From NCBI GenBank assembly GCA_001940825.1, contig MSGT01000064.1:1-64000 (forward strand): a DNA stretch of 64,000 nucleotides, written 5' to 3'. The DNA is from Sphaerochaeta sp. Phil3. GTDB lineage: Bacteria > Spirochaetota > Spirochaetia > Sphaerochaetales > Sphaerochaetaceae. A program made the position numbers and the translations under genes. Positions 102 through 60,956 of this stretch are shown here, piece by piece (position 1 is the first letter of the stretch; every line of letters starts with the position of its first letter). Under the pieces are notes generated by a model. The model was not told the DNA's origin. It made no database searches and worked only from the letters and a program-made list of their open reading frames with translations.

Positions 102-150
102 CCAGTGGGCGGACAGGACTCACTGGGCGCACTGGGCAGTCTGTGGCGCA
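102..150 (+). repeat. degenerate 9-nt GGG-unit array
   Basis: Three to four imperfect 9-nt units of the type NNNACTGGG are visible. The layout resembles the arrays bounding the two RAYT transposons further on, but it is shorter and more degenerate, and the conserved inner end motifs are absent. It could be a decayed solo copy. It lies between the window edge and a strong inverted repeat. Confidence 0.45.
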
Positions 151-163
151 CTGTTTCTTTTTG

Positions 164-3880: not shown

Positions 3881-4843
3881 CTATGCCCTAACTAAATGGA
3901 TTGCAAATCCTTCTACTTCCTCGTTGAGGTAGACGACTTTTATCCTTCCTTTCTCATCAAGTTTGATTGTGTCCTTTGCCGGTGTGAACCCGTGCACGGA
4001 AAGGTATTCGAGGGACCTCTCAACATTGAAGCACTTGTATCCAATGTGTCCATGGACTCCTCTGAACTGCGAATGCATCAGTTCTATTGTTTTGTCCATG
4101 AATGTAGACGAGTTGCCAGTTTTGGACTCCATTCCAAAAGCCTCAAATCTTGACGCAGCGGTCTTTGCATCATCGATTGAGTTCGTATTGATTCCAAAAT
4201 GAATCAACTCGAATCCCTGTGCTCTCATGATAGCATCGCTGCAGAGTCTCGTGATTTCGTCCCAATTCTCAGCTTCGATAAGGTTGGATTTGACCATCCA
4301 GGAACCACCAGCCGCTAGGACATGTTCGCATGCTGCGTACTCGGCTAGATTCGAAGAAGAAATGCCTCCTGTCGTCATGAATTTGACCTGAGGGAACGGC
4401 CCGCAAAGGTTCTTGATCATGTTTACTCCTCCTGAAGCCTCTGCAGGGAAGAATTTCAAGGCTTTCAGCCCCATCTTGACTCCCTTTTGGACTTCGCTTG
4501 CAGTGCAGACTCCTGGAATCACAGGCACTTCGTTCTCCTTGCACCATTGGACGATGTCACTGTCAAGTCCTGGTGATACTATGAACTGGGCTCCTGCATC
4601 TACGGCTTTCTTTGCCTGATCAATCGTTATTACAGTACCTGCTCCAAGAATCATCTCTGGAATGGTCTGGTGAATCAGTTTCATCGACTCCTCAGCGGCA
4701 TCGGTCCTGAATGTCACCTCTATGGCGTTGATTCCACCTTTTAGAATGGCTTTTGCCAAAGGAACTGCCTTTGAAGCATCTTTGATTACAACGACTGGAA
4801 CGACACCAAGGTTTTCGATTCTACACATCAGTTCATCATACAT
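3881..4843 (-). CDS. KDPG/KHG aldolase fused to a VOC/glyoxalase-like domain
   Basis: The N-terminal 205 residues are a class I Eda-type aldolase that cleaves 2-keto-3-deoxy-6-phosphogluconate to pyruvate and glyceraldehyde 3-phosphate. Catalytic Glu is in GINAIEVTFRT, the Schiff-base Lys in LKALKFFPAEASGG, and phosphate-binding loops lie at TTGGIS and AAGGSW. The last about 110 residues (FELIHFGINTNS ... HIGYKCFNVERSLEYLSVHGF ... YLNEEVEGFAIHL) look like a vicinal-oxygen-chelate domain, not needed for the aldolase. I chose the ATG at 4843, which has GGAGGG upstream. It is 15 nt behind kdgK, so co-transcribed. The role of the fused domain is unknown. Confidence 0.85.
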   Translation of the reverse strand: MYDELMCRIENLGVVPVVVIKDASKAVPLAKAILKGGINAIEVTFRTDAAEESMKLIHQTIPEMILGAGTVITIDQAKKAVDAGAQFIVSPGLDSDIVQWCKENEVPVIPGVCTASEVQKGVKMGLKALKFFPAEASGGVNMIKNLCGPFPQVKFMTTGGISSSNLAEYAACEHVLAAGGSWMVKSNLIEAENWDEITRLCSDAIMRAQGFELIHFGINTNSIDDAKTAASRFEAFGMESKTGNSSTFMDKTIELMHSQFRGVHGHIGYKCFNVERSLEYLSVHGFTPAKDTIKLDEKGRIKVVYLNEEVEGFAIHLVRA

Positions 4844-8062: not shown

Positions 8063-8905
8063 GTGGACATAAGGTATTCGACAGGCAAGGAGCCTTTCAA
8101 AAGAATGGACACTCAGGAGCTTAGGGACGAGTTCCTTATAACCGGTATATTCAAGCCAAATGATGTAAGTGCAGTCTATTCCCACGTGGACAGGATCGTG
8201 ACTATGGGTGTCATGCCGTTGGACGAGTGCGTTGGCATTGAGAAGAACATCGATCCTTGGAAGGACTTTGGCGTTTCGTACCTGCTTGAAAGGCGTGAAC
8301 TTGGAACGATAAACATAGGTGGTCCAGGACGGATTTATGCCGATGGCGTAGAGTACGGCATGTCCCATTTCGATGGACTCTATCTTCCAATGGGAACCAA
8401 AAAGGTTGAATTCAAGTCGGATTCTCCTGAGGATCCTGCCAAGTTCTATGTCATAACCACTCCGGCGCATACTCCAAAACCGGCAAAGCATATCCCGTAT
8501 GAGATGGCAATCCACAAGCACCTTGGGGCTCAGGCGACATCCAATGAAAGGACAATAAACCAGTACATCCATCCTGACATCCTTGATACATGTCAGCTTT
8601 CAATGGGTCTTACCCACCTTGAGGAAGGCTCCGTGTGGAACACCATGCCCGTTCATACACACGAAAGGAGAATGGAGGTCTATTTCTATTTCGATGTCCC
8701 AAAAGACAACGTTGTGTTCCATTTCATGGGTGAACCAAACCAGACGCGCCATATTGTCATGCACAACGAAGAGGCTGTCATCAACCCGGCCTGGTCCATC
8801 CATTCAGGCTGCGGGACTTCGAACTACACCTTCATATGGGCCATGTGCGGTGAAAACAGAGCCTATGACGATCAGGATTGGATCAAGACAGAGGACCTAA
8901 GATAA
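8063..8905 (+). CDS. kduI: 5-keto-4-deoxyuronate isomerase
   Basis: A 280-residue KduI cupin. Converts 5-keto-4-deoxyuronate (from unsaturated uronates released by pectin, alginate or glycosaminoglycan lyases) into 3-deoxy-hexodiulosonate, the KduD substrate. Seen: SYLLERRELGTINIGGPG in the first half and the zinc-binding block MPVHTHERRMEVYFYFDV with two His and Glu, then HFMGEP and WSIHSGCGTSNYTFIW. Length equals the family norm. GTG start at 8063 is set by GGGGAGGA 8 nt upstream. First gene of a plus-strand operon with an esterase 3 nt behind. Confidence 0.95.
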   Translation: MDIRYSTGKEPFKRMDTQELRDEFLITGIFKPNDVSAVYSHVDRIVTMGVMPLDECVGIEKNIDPWKDFGVSYLLERRELGTINIGGPGRIYADGVEYGMSHFDGLYLPMGTKKVEFKSDSPEDPAKFYVITTPAHTPKPAKHIPYEMAIHKHLGAQATSNERTINQYIHPDILDTCQLSMGLTHLEEGSVWNTMPVHTHERRMEVYFYFDVPKDNVVFHFMGEPNQTRHIVMHNEEAVINPAWSIHSGCGTSNYTFIWAMCGENRAYDDQDWIKTEDLR

Positions 8906-11379: not shown

Positions 11380-11480
11380 TCATGGGCGTATGGGCCTCAT
11401 GGGCTTTATGGGTTTTACGGGGCTTATGGGACTCATGGAACTCACGGGACTCATGGGGCGCACGGATTGCGCACGGATTC
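11380..11480. repeat. class 1 array, left copy
   Basis: About ten consecutive 9-nt units of the form NNNNAYGGG (such as CCTCATGGG, CTTTATGGG, GCTTATGGG, ACTCACGGG), closed on the gene side by two CGCACGGAT boxes 11 nt apart. The last 30 bp code for the C-terminus of transposase 1. Confidence 0.85.
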
Positions 11481-12173
11481 CGTTTCGTCTTGCCAGGGTT
11501 TTGAGAAATCGACTTTGAAGAAATGGTCGTTGTCAAGTTTGGTCCAGTCTTTGAATCTTTCTCTTGCCAGTTTCGCAACCATCTGGGAATCGTTTGATTC
11601 GTAGAAGTCGCAGAGCTCCTTTTCAGACATGCCGAACAGTGCAGTGTACAGTTCCTTGTCATAGGGTTTGACTATGATTCCCCTTTTCAAAGCCCAAAAA
11701 CAATCATAGGGAACGAACTCACCCCTTTCCAATACGTGCTTCACGTTGTCATAGTCATACTTTCCAACCGTAGTCAACGAAACAATGTCCTTGATTGCTC
11801 TAAGGTATGGACGTGATTCGAAAACCCGTTTTCCGTTCGTATACTTTCTTGGATTCTGCTCTCTGACCTTGTGGCTTACCGCTGAGTTCACAAGTCTGAG
11901 AACTTTGGATATCTCCTCTACGTTTTCAGCCATGAGGACATCATGGGTATGGTTGCTCATGACAACGGAAAAGATGATTTTGACATTGAATCTTGCACAG
12001 ATCCGACACAACAGGTTGTGTCTATACTTTCCAATCTCCTTGTCGAAGATGAATTCTTTCCCTGCCGCTCTTTGGGTTGCATGGTAGATACGTCCGTTCT
12101 TGTCCGTTCTCATCCGTTTGGGCTGAACGAATCCATTCGTTTCATGTCCCATCAGTTCGTTGAAATCCAGCAT
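11451..12173 (-). CDS. RAYT/IS200-like Y1 transposase 1
   Basis: 240 residues. A single-domain HUH-type nuclease of the REP-associated tyrosine transposase kind. Seen: GRIYHATQRAAGKEF, then a conserved Tyr/Arg helix, FNVKIIFSVVMSNHTHDVL with the HUH-type His pair at H75/H77, and a candidate catalytic Tyr at Y139 in TTVGKYDYDN. The same spacing (62 residues) occurs in the second copy in this window. The RBS AAGGAGG is 6 nt upstream. Its last residues (SVRNPCAP) are encoded by the flanking repeat array, so protein and array share DNA. Probably nicks or mobilises the arrays; that is inferred from the family. Confidence 0.75.
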   Translation of the reverse strand: MLDFNELMGHETNGFVQPKRMRTDKNGRIYHATQRAAGKEFIFDKEIGKYRHNLLCRICARFNVKIIFSVVMSNHTHDVLMAENVEEISKVLRLVNSAVSHKVREQNPRKYTNGKRVFESRPYLRAIKDIVSLTTVGKYDYDNVKHVLERGEFVPYDCFWALKRGIIVKPYDKELYTALFGMSEKELCDFYESNDSQMVAKLARERFKDWTKLDNDHFFKVDFSKPWQDETESVRNPCAP

Positions 12174-12251
12174 GTGCGCCTCCTTACTTTCTTCTACTTA
12201 CCTATATACGTGAAAGTTGCATTTTCCATTCACACTTCCGAGAACTTTTTA

Positions 12252-12352
12252 GATCCGTGCGTAATCCGTGCGTCCCATAAGCCCCATGCTCCCCATAAGT
12301 CCCGTGAGTCTCATAAGACGCGTAAGCCCCATAAAACCCATGCACCCCATGG
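12252..12352. repeat. class 1 array, right copy (inverted)
   Basis: The reverse complement of the left array type: two CGCACGGAT boxes nearest the gene (12252-12272), followed outward by about nine CCCRTNNNN units. It lies only 11 bp from the -35 box of the next gene. Confidence 0.85.
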
Positions 12353-12413: not shown

Positions 12414-13226
12414 ATGTCTTCGTTCTCCATTCTGCAAGCACTCAACAGTGCGCCTTTGTATTTGATATGCGGTGGCATAATCGCATTCGTTGCAGTGATA
12501 TGCGTCATTTTCCTTATAAGAGCCTATAGGGCTGGAATCGCTATGGGCATGGACAAAGGCAAGATGAAGACCGTTATAACTTCAAGCGCTACGTTCTCCA
12601 TCCTTCCAAGCGTTGGAATCCTGCTTGGAGTAATAGCCCTTTCTGGAAGCCTTGGCATACCATGGCCATGGCTTAGGTTGTCAGTCATTGGAGCCCTTCA
12701 CTATGAAACCCAGGTGGCTCAGGCCGCTGCAGAGCAGGTAGGGCTTTCAAGCCTCTCAGCTGCAGAAATGACACCCCAGGCGTTCACTACCATAGCTCTT
12801 TTGATGAGCATTTGCATAATGTGGGGCATGGTTCTCTCTGTATTCCTCAACAAGGGATACCTCAAGAAGATAAGCGGTTCCAAGAAGGGAGAGGCCAAAG
12901 AAACTGCAACGTTCAAACCAAACGATTTGGACAACAAGAAGGGTGGCTTTGCAGACAAAGCCATGACAGCAATGTTCATAGGTCTTGTTGGTGCATACGT
13001 TGCTTCCTACATTGGAGGGTTCGTTTCAGGTGGCGCCCAGAACGGAGGCGGAATCTTCAGGTTCCGCGGTGATTGGGTGCCGTTGGTGGTCGTAGCGGCA
13101 TCGGCCTTGTCCATGGCGTTTTTCATTTGGCTTTCTGAAAAGAAGAAGCTGGCGTGGGTGGATAATTTCTCCATTGCTGGAAGCATGATCGTTGGCATGG
13201 CGGCTGCAGTCGTCGTGAGTCTGTGA
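12414..13226 (+). CDS. DUF5058 family membrane protein
   Basis: A 270-residue polytopic membrane protein with about six hydrophobic segments: an N-terminal span (LYLICGGIIAFVAVICVIFL), a conserved soluble stretch MGMDKGKMKTVITSSATFSI, and later TTIALLMSICIMWGMVL, MFIGLVGAYVASYIGG and WVPLVVVAASAL. I recognise the DUF5058 pattern. It is coupled to a second membrane protein gene, suggesting a two-subunit transporter; substrate unknown. Similar genes elsewhere often lie near M20 peptidases, and one occurs 6 kb downstream. Confidence 0.75.
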   Translation: MSSFSILQALNSAPLYLICGGIIAFVAVICVIFLIRAYRAGIAMGMDKGKMKTVITSSATFSILPSVGILLGVIALSGSLGIPWPWLRLSVIGALHYETQVAQAAAEQVGLSSLSAAEMTPQAFTTIALLMSICIMWGMVLSVFLNKGYLKKISGSKKGEAKETATFKPNDLDNKKGGFADKAMTAMFIGLVGAYVASYIGGFVSGGAQNGGGIFRFRGDWVPLVVVAASALSMAFFIWLSEKKKLAWVDNFSIAGSMIVGMAAAVVVSL

Positions 13227-29926: not shown

Positions 29927-30652
29927 ATGGGACGACGAATTGATTTAAACAACTACTTGCAGGATGGAAAGACCCGTACGAATGCGGGGAATTCGAAACA
30001 CGGAAAGATCGACAAGACAGGCAGGTGCTATCATGCAACACAGCAGACATGGTGCAAGGAACCTGTATTCAACAGGGACATAGCGGTGTACAGGCATACG
30101 ATGCTGTGTCAGTTGTGCATAGAGTTCAACGTTGTGATTCTTTTCTCCGTTACGATGCCAAACCATACGCATGACGTTTTGTTTTCAGATAATTGGGAGA
30201 ACATCGCCACTGTATTGAAAGTCCTTAATTCCGCTGTGACCAGATATGTCTACAGAAAAGACCCTAAAAGGAAGGAAAAGGGAAAACCTGTTTTCAATTC
30301 AAGGCCTACATACAGCATAGTCACTACAATCGACTATCTGTTTTTTCTTGGCAGATACCTTTTGTGGAATGTTGAACAGTTGGAAAATGAAGGCAGGTTC
30401 GTCCCATACTCATGCTTTTGGATGTTTGAGAAGGATCATTTCTCCGAGCCTTACAAAAGGAATATCTACAATGATTTGTTTGGATTCGAACCAAAGGAGC
30501 TCTTTGAATTCTATAGAACCCATAGCAAGGGGGAAGTGTATGATATTTCCAAAAAGCTTTTCTGCGATTGGACACAGGAGATGAACGAAGAGGTGTTCCG
30601 TGCGCAAACGGTACGGATTCAACAGTCTTCAACAGCCCCAACAGCCCAGTGA
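29927..30652 (+). CDS. RAYT/IS200-like Y1 transposase 2
   Basis: 241 residues, clearly homologous to transposase 1: TGRCYHATQQTWCKEPVF, FNVVILFSVTMPNHTHDVL with HUH-type His at H80/H82, and candidate catalytic Tyr Y144 in FFLGRYLLWN, again 62 residues after the second His. RBS AAAGGAGG 5 nt before the ATG. The C-terminal residues RIQQSSTAPTAQ are encoded by the right array, just as in copy 1. Mobilisation of the arrays is inferred from the RAYT family. Confidence 0.75.
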   Translation: MGRRIDLNNYLQDGKTRTNAGNSKHGKIDKTGRCYHATQQTWCKEPVFNRDIAVYRHTMLCQLCIEFNVVILFSVTMPNHTHDVLFSDNWENIATVLKVLNSAVTRYVYRKDPKRKEKGKPVFNSRPTYSIVTTIDYLFFLGRYLLWNVEQLENEGRFVPYSCFWMFEKDHFSEPYKRNIYNDLFGFEPKELFEFYRTHSKGEVYDISKKLFCDWTQEMNEEVFRAQTVRIQQSSTAPTAQ

Positions 30653-30706
30653 GCCCGAAAAGCCCAATAGGCCCTAAGCGCCCAGTAAGCCCCAATAGCC
30701 CTATTG
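30617..30706. repeat. class 2 array, right copy (inverted)
   Basis: It begins with the inverted inner motif ATTCAACAGTCTTCAAC and continues outward as about eight CCC-containing 9-nt units; weak similarity extends to about 30731. The first 36 bp also code for the transposase C-terminus. Confidence 0.85.
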
Positions 30707-30779
30707 GTCTCAACCGCCACAAGCGCCCGTTTTGCAAGTTCCTCTTGACCATTGCATGAAGAAAGGACAGACTCAAGGC

Positions 30780-35852: not shown

Positions 35853-36368
35853 ATGGAAGAGAACACAAGGAAAGAGCCAGTTCCCACAGGAGCCGGCTCT
35901 CCTTTTTTTATGTGCAGGCAGCAGGCTCTGCGTTATCTAGGCCTGCGGGAACACAACAGATGCGAGCTTAAGACCAAGCTCTTGGGCAAAGGCTACGATG
36001 TTGGACTTGTCGATTCCGTTTTGGACATTCTCGTTGATGATGGCTCGTTGAACGAGCACCGCTATGTTGAGTTGTTCGCCCGTTCCTCCAACCGCCGCCA
36101 TCCTGAAGGGAAGTCCCTTGTCATGGCTCGCCTTGCTGCAAAAGGTGCTGACCGTCTTGTATGTTCCGAGGTCTTGGACGAGATGTATGGCGACTATGAC
36201 TATGTGTCTTCGCTGGTGCGACAGGCGTATTCGCGAATCGTTTCCAAGGCGGCATCAAAAGGTAAGAGCCTTTCCTCTTATGAGTTGCGCCAGGCTCTTG
36301 CAAAACTAGGATTTTCGTCAGTGCAAGTACGGGAGTGTTTGGAACACGAGGATTCTTTTGAGGCTTGA
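35853..36368 (+). CDS. recX: RecX family regulator of RecA
   Basis: Up to 171 residues. Helical repeats typical of RecX: ALRYLGLREHNRCELKTKLL, VDSVLDILVDDGSLNEHRYVEL and a final ALAKLGFSSVQVRECLE. Modulates RecA filaments. The start is uncertain: the ATG at 35853 would put the rpsI terminator inside codons 7-19; the ATG at 35910 lies right after the T-run and gives MCRQQALRYLG, 152 residues, but lacks an RBS. Confidence 0.8.
   Translation: MEENTRKEPVPTGAGSPFFMCRQQALRYLGLREHNRCELKTKLLGKGYDVGLVDSVLDILVDDGSLNEHRYVELFARSSNRRHPEGKSLVMARLAAKGADRLVCSEVLDEMYGDYDYVSSLVRQAYSRIVSKAASKGKSLSSYELRQALAKLGFSSVQVRECLEHEDSFEA
35873..35909 (+). terminator. terminator of the rplM-rpsI operon, within the recX 5' region
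   Basis: AGAGCC (35873-35878) pairs with GGCTCT (35895-35900), with further inner pairing, followed by CC and seven T. Strong intrinsic terminator 42 nt after rpsI. Confidence 0.75.
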
Positions 36369-36370
36369 TT

Positions 36371-36443
36371 CGATTGCGTTTTGATGCGTTCTAGTGCGCC
36401 CTGATGCGCCTTGGTGTGCCTTGATGCGCCATGAAAGCAATCG
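36371..36443. repeat. 10-nt TTGATGCGCC repeats inside a 7-bp inverted repeat
   Basis: Four to five imperfect TTGATGCGCC-like units are bounded by CGATTGC (36371-36377) and GCAATCG (36437-36443). It lies between recX and the solo class 1 array and has no coding potential. Confidence 0.5.
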
Positions 36444-36445
36444 TT

Positions 36446-36541
36446 GTGCCTATGGGGCTTATGGGGCGCACGGACCGCATGGGCTTTATGGGGCCTACGG
36501 GTCTCATGGGACTCACGGGGCGCACGGATAACGCACGGATT
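36446..36541. repeat. solo class 1 array without transposase
   Basis: About nine 9-nt NNNNAYGGG units followed by the class 1 inner motif CGCACGGAT-AA-CGCACGGAT, the same as the ends of transposon 1. There is no transposase next to it. Its last base is the last base of the stop codon of the minus-strand ATPase gene. Confidence 0.85.

Positions 36542-59079: not shown

Positions 59080-60956
<1,877 letters not shown>

Follow-up and report, generated by a model that had tools for sequence, protein, structure and literature searches.

The window analysed here, a 64-kb stretch of DNA, corresponds to contig C64 of a source genome of 2.36 Mb in 72 contigs. It holds a gene for a RAYT-like Y1 transposase that lies between two inverted arrays of a 9-nt unit, which we call F1:

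11380–11479, minus strand: left (3′) F1 array, 11 units with the box; units as they run away from the gene on the minus strand include AATCCGTGCGC AATCCGTGC GCCCCATGA
11459–11478, plus strand: left inner box, CGCACGGAT-TG-CGCACGGAT, a terminal doublet with 11-nt spacing, kept in 15 F1 arrays
11451–12173, minus strand: RAYT-like Y1 transposase gene, 240 aa
12253–12272, plus strand: right inner box, ATCCGTGCG-TA-ATCCGTGCG, the inverse of the left box
12252–12352, plus strand: right (5′) F1 array, 11 units with the box

A sequence-only reading of this locus had described a Y1 transposase gene flanked by two inverted arrays of about ten 9-nt units each, with a common motif at their inner ends and the stop codon inside an array. 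All three features are borne out, with 11 units on each side when the box is counted, the common motif being the two boxes above, and the stop codon falling within the left array. The two arrays, aligned in inverted orientation, are complementary at 74% over 95 nt and at 81% over 68 nt, and both keep a 9-nt spacing throughout except for a single spacing of 11 at the inner end. All six RAYT genes of the source genome (L002–L007) have a leader of the form GAATGGAAA-N6-GKTTTCTTGTAT that separates the box from the start codon. Elsewhere (L029, G000:C20, about 1571–1630), a solo F1 array is followed by this leader and then by a different gene, as though that gene had captured the transposase promoter.

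The first RAYT protein matches Pfam Y1_Tnp (PF01797, E = 1.8e-9), and the best NCBIfam family for the RAYT proteins is REP_Tyr_transpos (NF047646), at 15–36 bits and thus below its cut-off of 80. The catalytic HxH and Tyr that characterize RAYTs and HUH enzymes are present, as H75, H77 and Y139 are invariant among 12 RAYT sequences; the HUH motif of the first RAYT reads HTHD, with threonine where a hydrophobic residue is usual. An AlphaFold model built from 12 sequences (pLDDT 85) matches TnpA of ISDra2 and IS608 in Foldseek, with a weaker match to the E. coli TnpA-REP/REP complex (4er8). The model predicts a helical C-terminal part (residues 158–219), within which a Pfam search returned no HTH-family match. 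IS200/IS605 elements such as ISDra2 and IS608 have ends unlike each other, subterminal hairpins and a multi-copy mobile gene; the present system shares with them the HUH-Y1 fold, as judged by Foldseek, and the catalytic residues, and differs in its symmetric inverted-array ends and in a gene that exists as single divergent copies. Six RAYT-like genes are present in the source genome, each a single divergent copy with arrays of its own, at 37–63% identity to the first RAYT protein, and none of the genomes searched holds two or more close copies of one RAYT.

One of the six also lies in the window, together with further arrays:

107–152, minus strand: short solo array of the F5 family, whose RAYT lies on contig C26
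29791–29854, minus strand: F4 array on the 5′ side of the second RAYT
29930–30652, plus strand: second RAYT-like gene, 39–40% identical to the first RAYT, with the private unit NNNNNGCCC
30620–30728, plus strand: F4 array on the 3′ side of the second RAYT
36359–36443: array of 10-nt units, adjoining the outer end of the next feature
36450–36541, minus strand: solo F1 array with the F1 box and no transposase
59678–59876, plus strand: solo F4 array of 22 units (CAACGGCCC/CGTAAGCCC), with its box side at 59678

At two RAYTs the 5′ and 3′ arrays have a common unit order, over 44 nt at 95% for the second RAYT of the window and over 64 nt at 94% for the RAYT on C26, which points to occasional homogenisation of the two ends or to their copying from a single template.

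These arrays are not a chance product, either as F1 arrays or as period-9 arrays in general. The pattern AYGGGN4AYGGGN4AYGGG has 65 matches in 18 places of the whole source genome, and the reversed-pattern control has none. A 464-kb sample of the source genome, used for the period scan and for the copy numbers of families beyond F1, contains 20 arrays of period 9 and 10 of period 10; lag 15 gives 4 arrays and the remaining lags 0–2, lags 18 and 20 scoring as multiples, and composition-preserving shuffles within blocks of the same sample yield no arrays at lags 8–10.

Arrays without a transposase are common. The F1 unit occurs at no fewer than 16 further loci of the source genome that lack a transposase, and the 464-kb sample holds 20 solo arrays against 12 that flank a RAYT, with solo copies for all six families. 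Sixteen of the 20 lie outside open reading frames, which cover 87% of the sample. Each solo array carries one box and runs in a single orientation relative to it. When 15 F1 arrays (13 of them solo) are aligned on the box, the flank contributes about 0 bits until the base before AATCCGTGCG, from which point the alignment holds 1.5–1.9 bits; the inner box letters are partly selected because the arrays were recruited by a box-like pattern, and the two A's preceding that pattern and the units beyond the box lie outside it. All solo F1 arrays that were retrieved through the box have this end sharp to one base, next to unrelated flanks. The outer end of the F1 arrays has no motif and is ragged, at 7–20 units, and units are heterogeneous within single arrays. 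Two observations named beforehand as speaking against mobility based on the arrays fared differently: arrays do occur at many gene-free loci (at least 16 for F1, and 20 solo arrays in 464 kb), and boundaries that differ from copy to copy were not seen among the box-recovered solo F1 arrays.

A small stem is possible at the doublet of the F1 box, and folding found no hairpin common to all families at the box; a conserved hairpin was accordingly discarded as a general signal. A G-quadruplex was discarded as well, since it would suit only the G-rich families, and TTTGCAAGA and TGATAAAGC do not qualify. Nor do the arrays read as collagen-like coding repeats, for which 9 nt would be three codons, given in-unit stops, a mostly extragenic position of the solo arrays and no long conserved open reading frame. 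One 3′ array (L072, G000:C61) contains two reverse-complement units that form a 13-bp hairpin. Some solo arrays form head-to-head pairs with one from a different family, as at 36359–36541 of the window and at L167 (G009:C39), where two inverted copies of one compound element (4356–4612 and 8299–8498) each comprise a TGATAAAGC array, a conserved spacer GGCAAGGATAATACCAATTGTTTTGATTCC and a TTTGCAAG array; the boxes at the two outer ends resemble each other. Such heterotypic pairs resemble BIMEs.

In named collections, the relatives of the source genome are MAGs of Sphaerochaetaceae/Spirochaetales that come mostly from rumen and faeces, and they contribute about 20 RAYT-array genes beyond the six of the source genome. 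Further genes of this kind occur in 8 of the 10 same-genus genomes searched and in genus g8, and 297 genomes drawn evenly across the class yielded, for the RAYT, only the source genome and one weak match. Arrays flank the gene on both sides at 21 RAYT loci in genera g1 and g8; at a few loci just one flank carries an array, in some cases at a contig end. The unit period is mostly 9, and 10 in one RAYT of the source genome and some of g8. At most g1 loci the inner spacing is 10 or 11 and the remaining spacings 9 on both sides, a shift found at about 10 loci by automatic parse and at L052, L066 and L072 by eye in the same output; it is not clear in the 10-nt families. That a RAYT may be bounded by arrays of its own instead of REP palindromes, as the sequence-only reading had held, is upheld as a recurrent arrangement, while palindromes do appear in more distant relatives: in a sister genus, two RAYT-like genes are flanked by ordinary GGTACCTGG-type palindromes (L182, 1018–1073; L188, 1933–1988). 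The array-bounded RAYT is, as far as these genomes indicate, a lineage-wide design that recurs in part of the Sphaerochaetaceae. No such arrays accompany the Y1 transposases at twelve more remote loci within the family or class (L059–L064, L071, L182, L187–L190). Two distant Y1 transposases of the genus (L058, G006:C50; L077, G008:C17) are accompanied by 8-nt units in head-to-head palindromic pairs on the 5′ side, which are possibly an intermediate between arrays and REP hairpins.

Each gene is matched to its own unit. A position weight matrix built from the 3′ array ranks the 5′ flank of the same gene first for 18 of 18 RAYTs, usually by a wide margin. Between transposases that are 62% and 53% identical, unit similarity is only 0.23 and 0.27, and no correlation of unit similarity with transposase similarity was detected (Mantel r = 0.11, p = 0.17), so that co-divergence of unit and transposase was rejected. 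Judged from these comparisons, the unit sequence is private to each gene and the geometry of box and spacing is conserved.

Two sister species, G009 and G010, about 94% identical over shared contigs, bear on movement. Their RAYTs and solo arrays are positionally conserved. At four loci, orthologous arrays differ by 18, 27, 27 and 45 nt, that is, by whole 9-nt units, and the end box is kept at three of the four, the G009 box being altered at locus 1; replication slippage without an enzyme could produce such length changes. A 0.6-kb array-bounded segment of G009:C68 is absent in G010:C306, with two units and a 5-nt TGTGC microhomology at the junction. This segment (L168, 5148–5791) has inverted TTTGCAAG arrays whose boxes face a small HTH (XRE-like) gene, with no RAYT there. 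Microhomology deletion and enzyme-driven excision are indistinguishable here, and a plain deletion could account for the difference. In the source and related genomes, copies of the array abound, and no clean empty site was found. The segment above is the sole, ambiguous candidate between G009 and G010; in G005, neither array nor RAYT precedes the gene orthologous to that at 12414, and the neighbouring gene differs, so that this is no clean empty site, and the xpt neighbourhood is not syntenic and gave none either. No viral carriers were found in IMG/VR. In one intergenic region, different RAYTs with different units are found in opposite orientation in G007 and G009 (L137, G007:C2; L099, G009:C29), which suggests an insertion hotspot.

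REP-RAYT systems are understood through hairpin recognition. REPs are palindromes of 20–40 nt with a GTAG-type head (PMC2817692, PMC3116915). As in REP-RAYT systems, or REPtrons (PMC2817692, PMC3116915), a single-copy Y1 gene is flanked here by two inverted repeats that belong to an extragenically dispersed family, the repeats have a defined end and can form BIME-like head-to-head pairs (L167), and the gene is stably inherited. The flanking repeat is dispersed in the genome, as expected of a RAYT; in place of the two inverted palindromic REPs expected around the gene there are inverted arrays, and the ends consist, unlike REPs, of 7–20 tandem 9-nt units plus a two-unit box with no cross-family hairpin. 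A second comparison is with TIRtrons, whose RAYT-like Y1 transposase (TIRYT) is associated, in the open-access text of the published accounts, with long terminal inverted repeats unlike REPs and with some dispersed families (PMC3733652, PMC6006769). Long non-REP terminal inverted repeats, dispersal of some families and an extra C-terminal part are shared, and the broad definition given in those texts covers the present loci. TIRYT subclass 2.1 is there assigned a C-terminal helix-turn-helix (Bac_DnaA_C, HTH_23 or HTH_28; PMC6006769). The same texts give a GGGGWSAS motif in the terminal inverted repeats of many, though not all, described TIRtrons (PMC3733652, PMC6006769); it is not common to the arrays here, whose units differ completely between genes. 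Unlike TIRtrons as those texts describe them, the present ends are tandem short-unit repeats with a fixed period and private units, a spacing-shifted terminal unit and whole-unit polymorphism. The BrickBuilt MITE of Porphyromonas gingivalis, with a 23-nt unit and a leader and tail with small inverted repeats (PMC4596501), is likewise a dispersed intergenic tandem minisatellite with a fixed leader; its abstract mentions neither a cognate Y1 transposase nor gene-private units (PMC4596501). Our searches of open-access main texts turned up no description of RAYT ends that consist of short-unit tandem arrays. On present sequences, the system appears to work like a REPtron and formally fits the broad TIRtron definition, with array ends that the accessible text describes for neither.

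We consider it probable that this is a REP-RAYT-like system where tandem arrays without a hairpin have taken the place of hairpin REPs and a cognate Y1 transposase acts on these arrays. This reading must be weighed against the view that the arrays are ordinary minisatellites grown by replication slippage, with transposases that have no functional connection to them. Whole-unit length changes, heterogeneous units within arrays and the fact that no transposition event was caught would all suit slippage; it leaves unexplained why 21 RAYT loci have inverted arrays to either side and why the two sides carry the same private unit in 18 of 18 cases, and it runs against a box end that 13 unlinked solo copies keep to the exact base. 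The private match and this box end largely refute it, and we regard it as improbable. The box end in unrelated flanks, which indicates past dispersal, also weighs against arrays that serve as host sites (protein-binding, nucleoid or termination) and are bound, not moved, by domesticated regulators, as do the tracking of every family with its own transposase and the invariant catalytic HxH and Tyr. That the arrays are mostly extragenic and positionally stable between G009 and G010, and that the transposases are single-copy and vertically inherited, is what such a host role would predict; it nonetheless seems very improbable.

A conventional array-ended insertion sequence that moves whole, with solo arrays as deleted or decayed remains, would explain the common unit order of left and right arrays at C26 and the second RAYT, as after recent common copying, the L029 array that retains a transposase leader with the gene gone, and the G007 and G009 RAYTs that lie opposite ways round in one intergenic region. 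Against it, no genome searched contains close RAYT copies, solo arrays outnumber genes, most solo arrays have one box and no gene traces, and RAYT loci common to G009 and G010 keep their position; we hold it to be unlikely. What remains of the earlier designation as a transposon is the array-bounded RAYT; an active unit of gene plus arrays is not supported, given six single divergent copies and arrays dispersed alone. An array equivalent to a REP and a gene equivalent to a RAYT/TIRYT seem, from the sequences, a better reading than a whole-unit transposon.

In the REP-RAYT-like reading, the element consists of a fixed end (the box, whose two units are 10–11 nt apart where the others keep 9) and a run of 9-nt units that varies in number; a Y1 transposase, divergent and single-copy, sits between two such elements with the boxes toward the gene, and the unit family is dispersed as solo arrays. 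The cognate transposase probably recognizes box and units in single-stranded DNA, nicks at the box, and copies, joins or moves arrays elsewhere in trans. The repeated units may serve as equivalent second sites, or slip in replication, either of which would yield the ragged outer end and the 9-nt length steps. The sequences show the architecture, the private unit, the sharp box and ragged outer end, the dispersal, the whole-unit steps and the restriction to part of one family. The uncorrelated similarities of unit and transposase fit poorly with a fixed reader that co-evolves slowly with its site, and such fast unit turnover makes it worth considering that the transposase reads the 9-nt repetition itself, instead of a conserved sequence or hairpin, perhaps through slipped-strand loops or through pairing of the box with its own units as guide. 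This extension is speculative and, in our estimate, has only a small chance of being right; if true, units could change in sequence without constraint provided that the period and the displaced terminal unit are kept, and the HUH enzyme would recognize its ends in a self-guided, programmable-like manner.

The arrays raise the question of how an HUH transposase with hairpin-less arrays finds its ends and changes its specificity. The sister genera with ordinary palindromes may represent a transition within the family, and RAYT-linked arrays may be a source for dispersed bacterial minisatellites.
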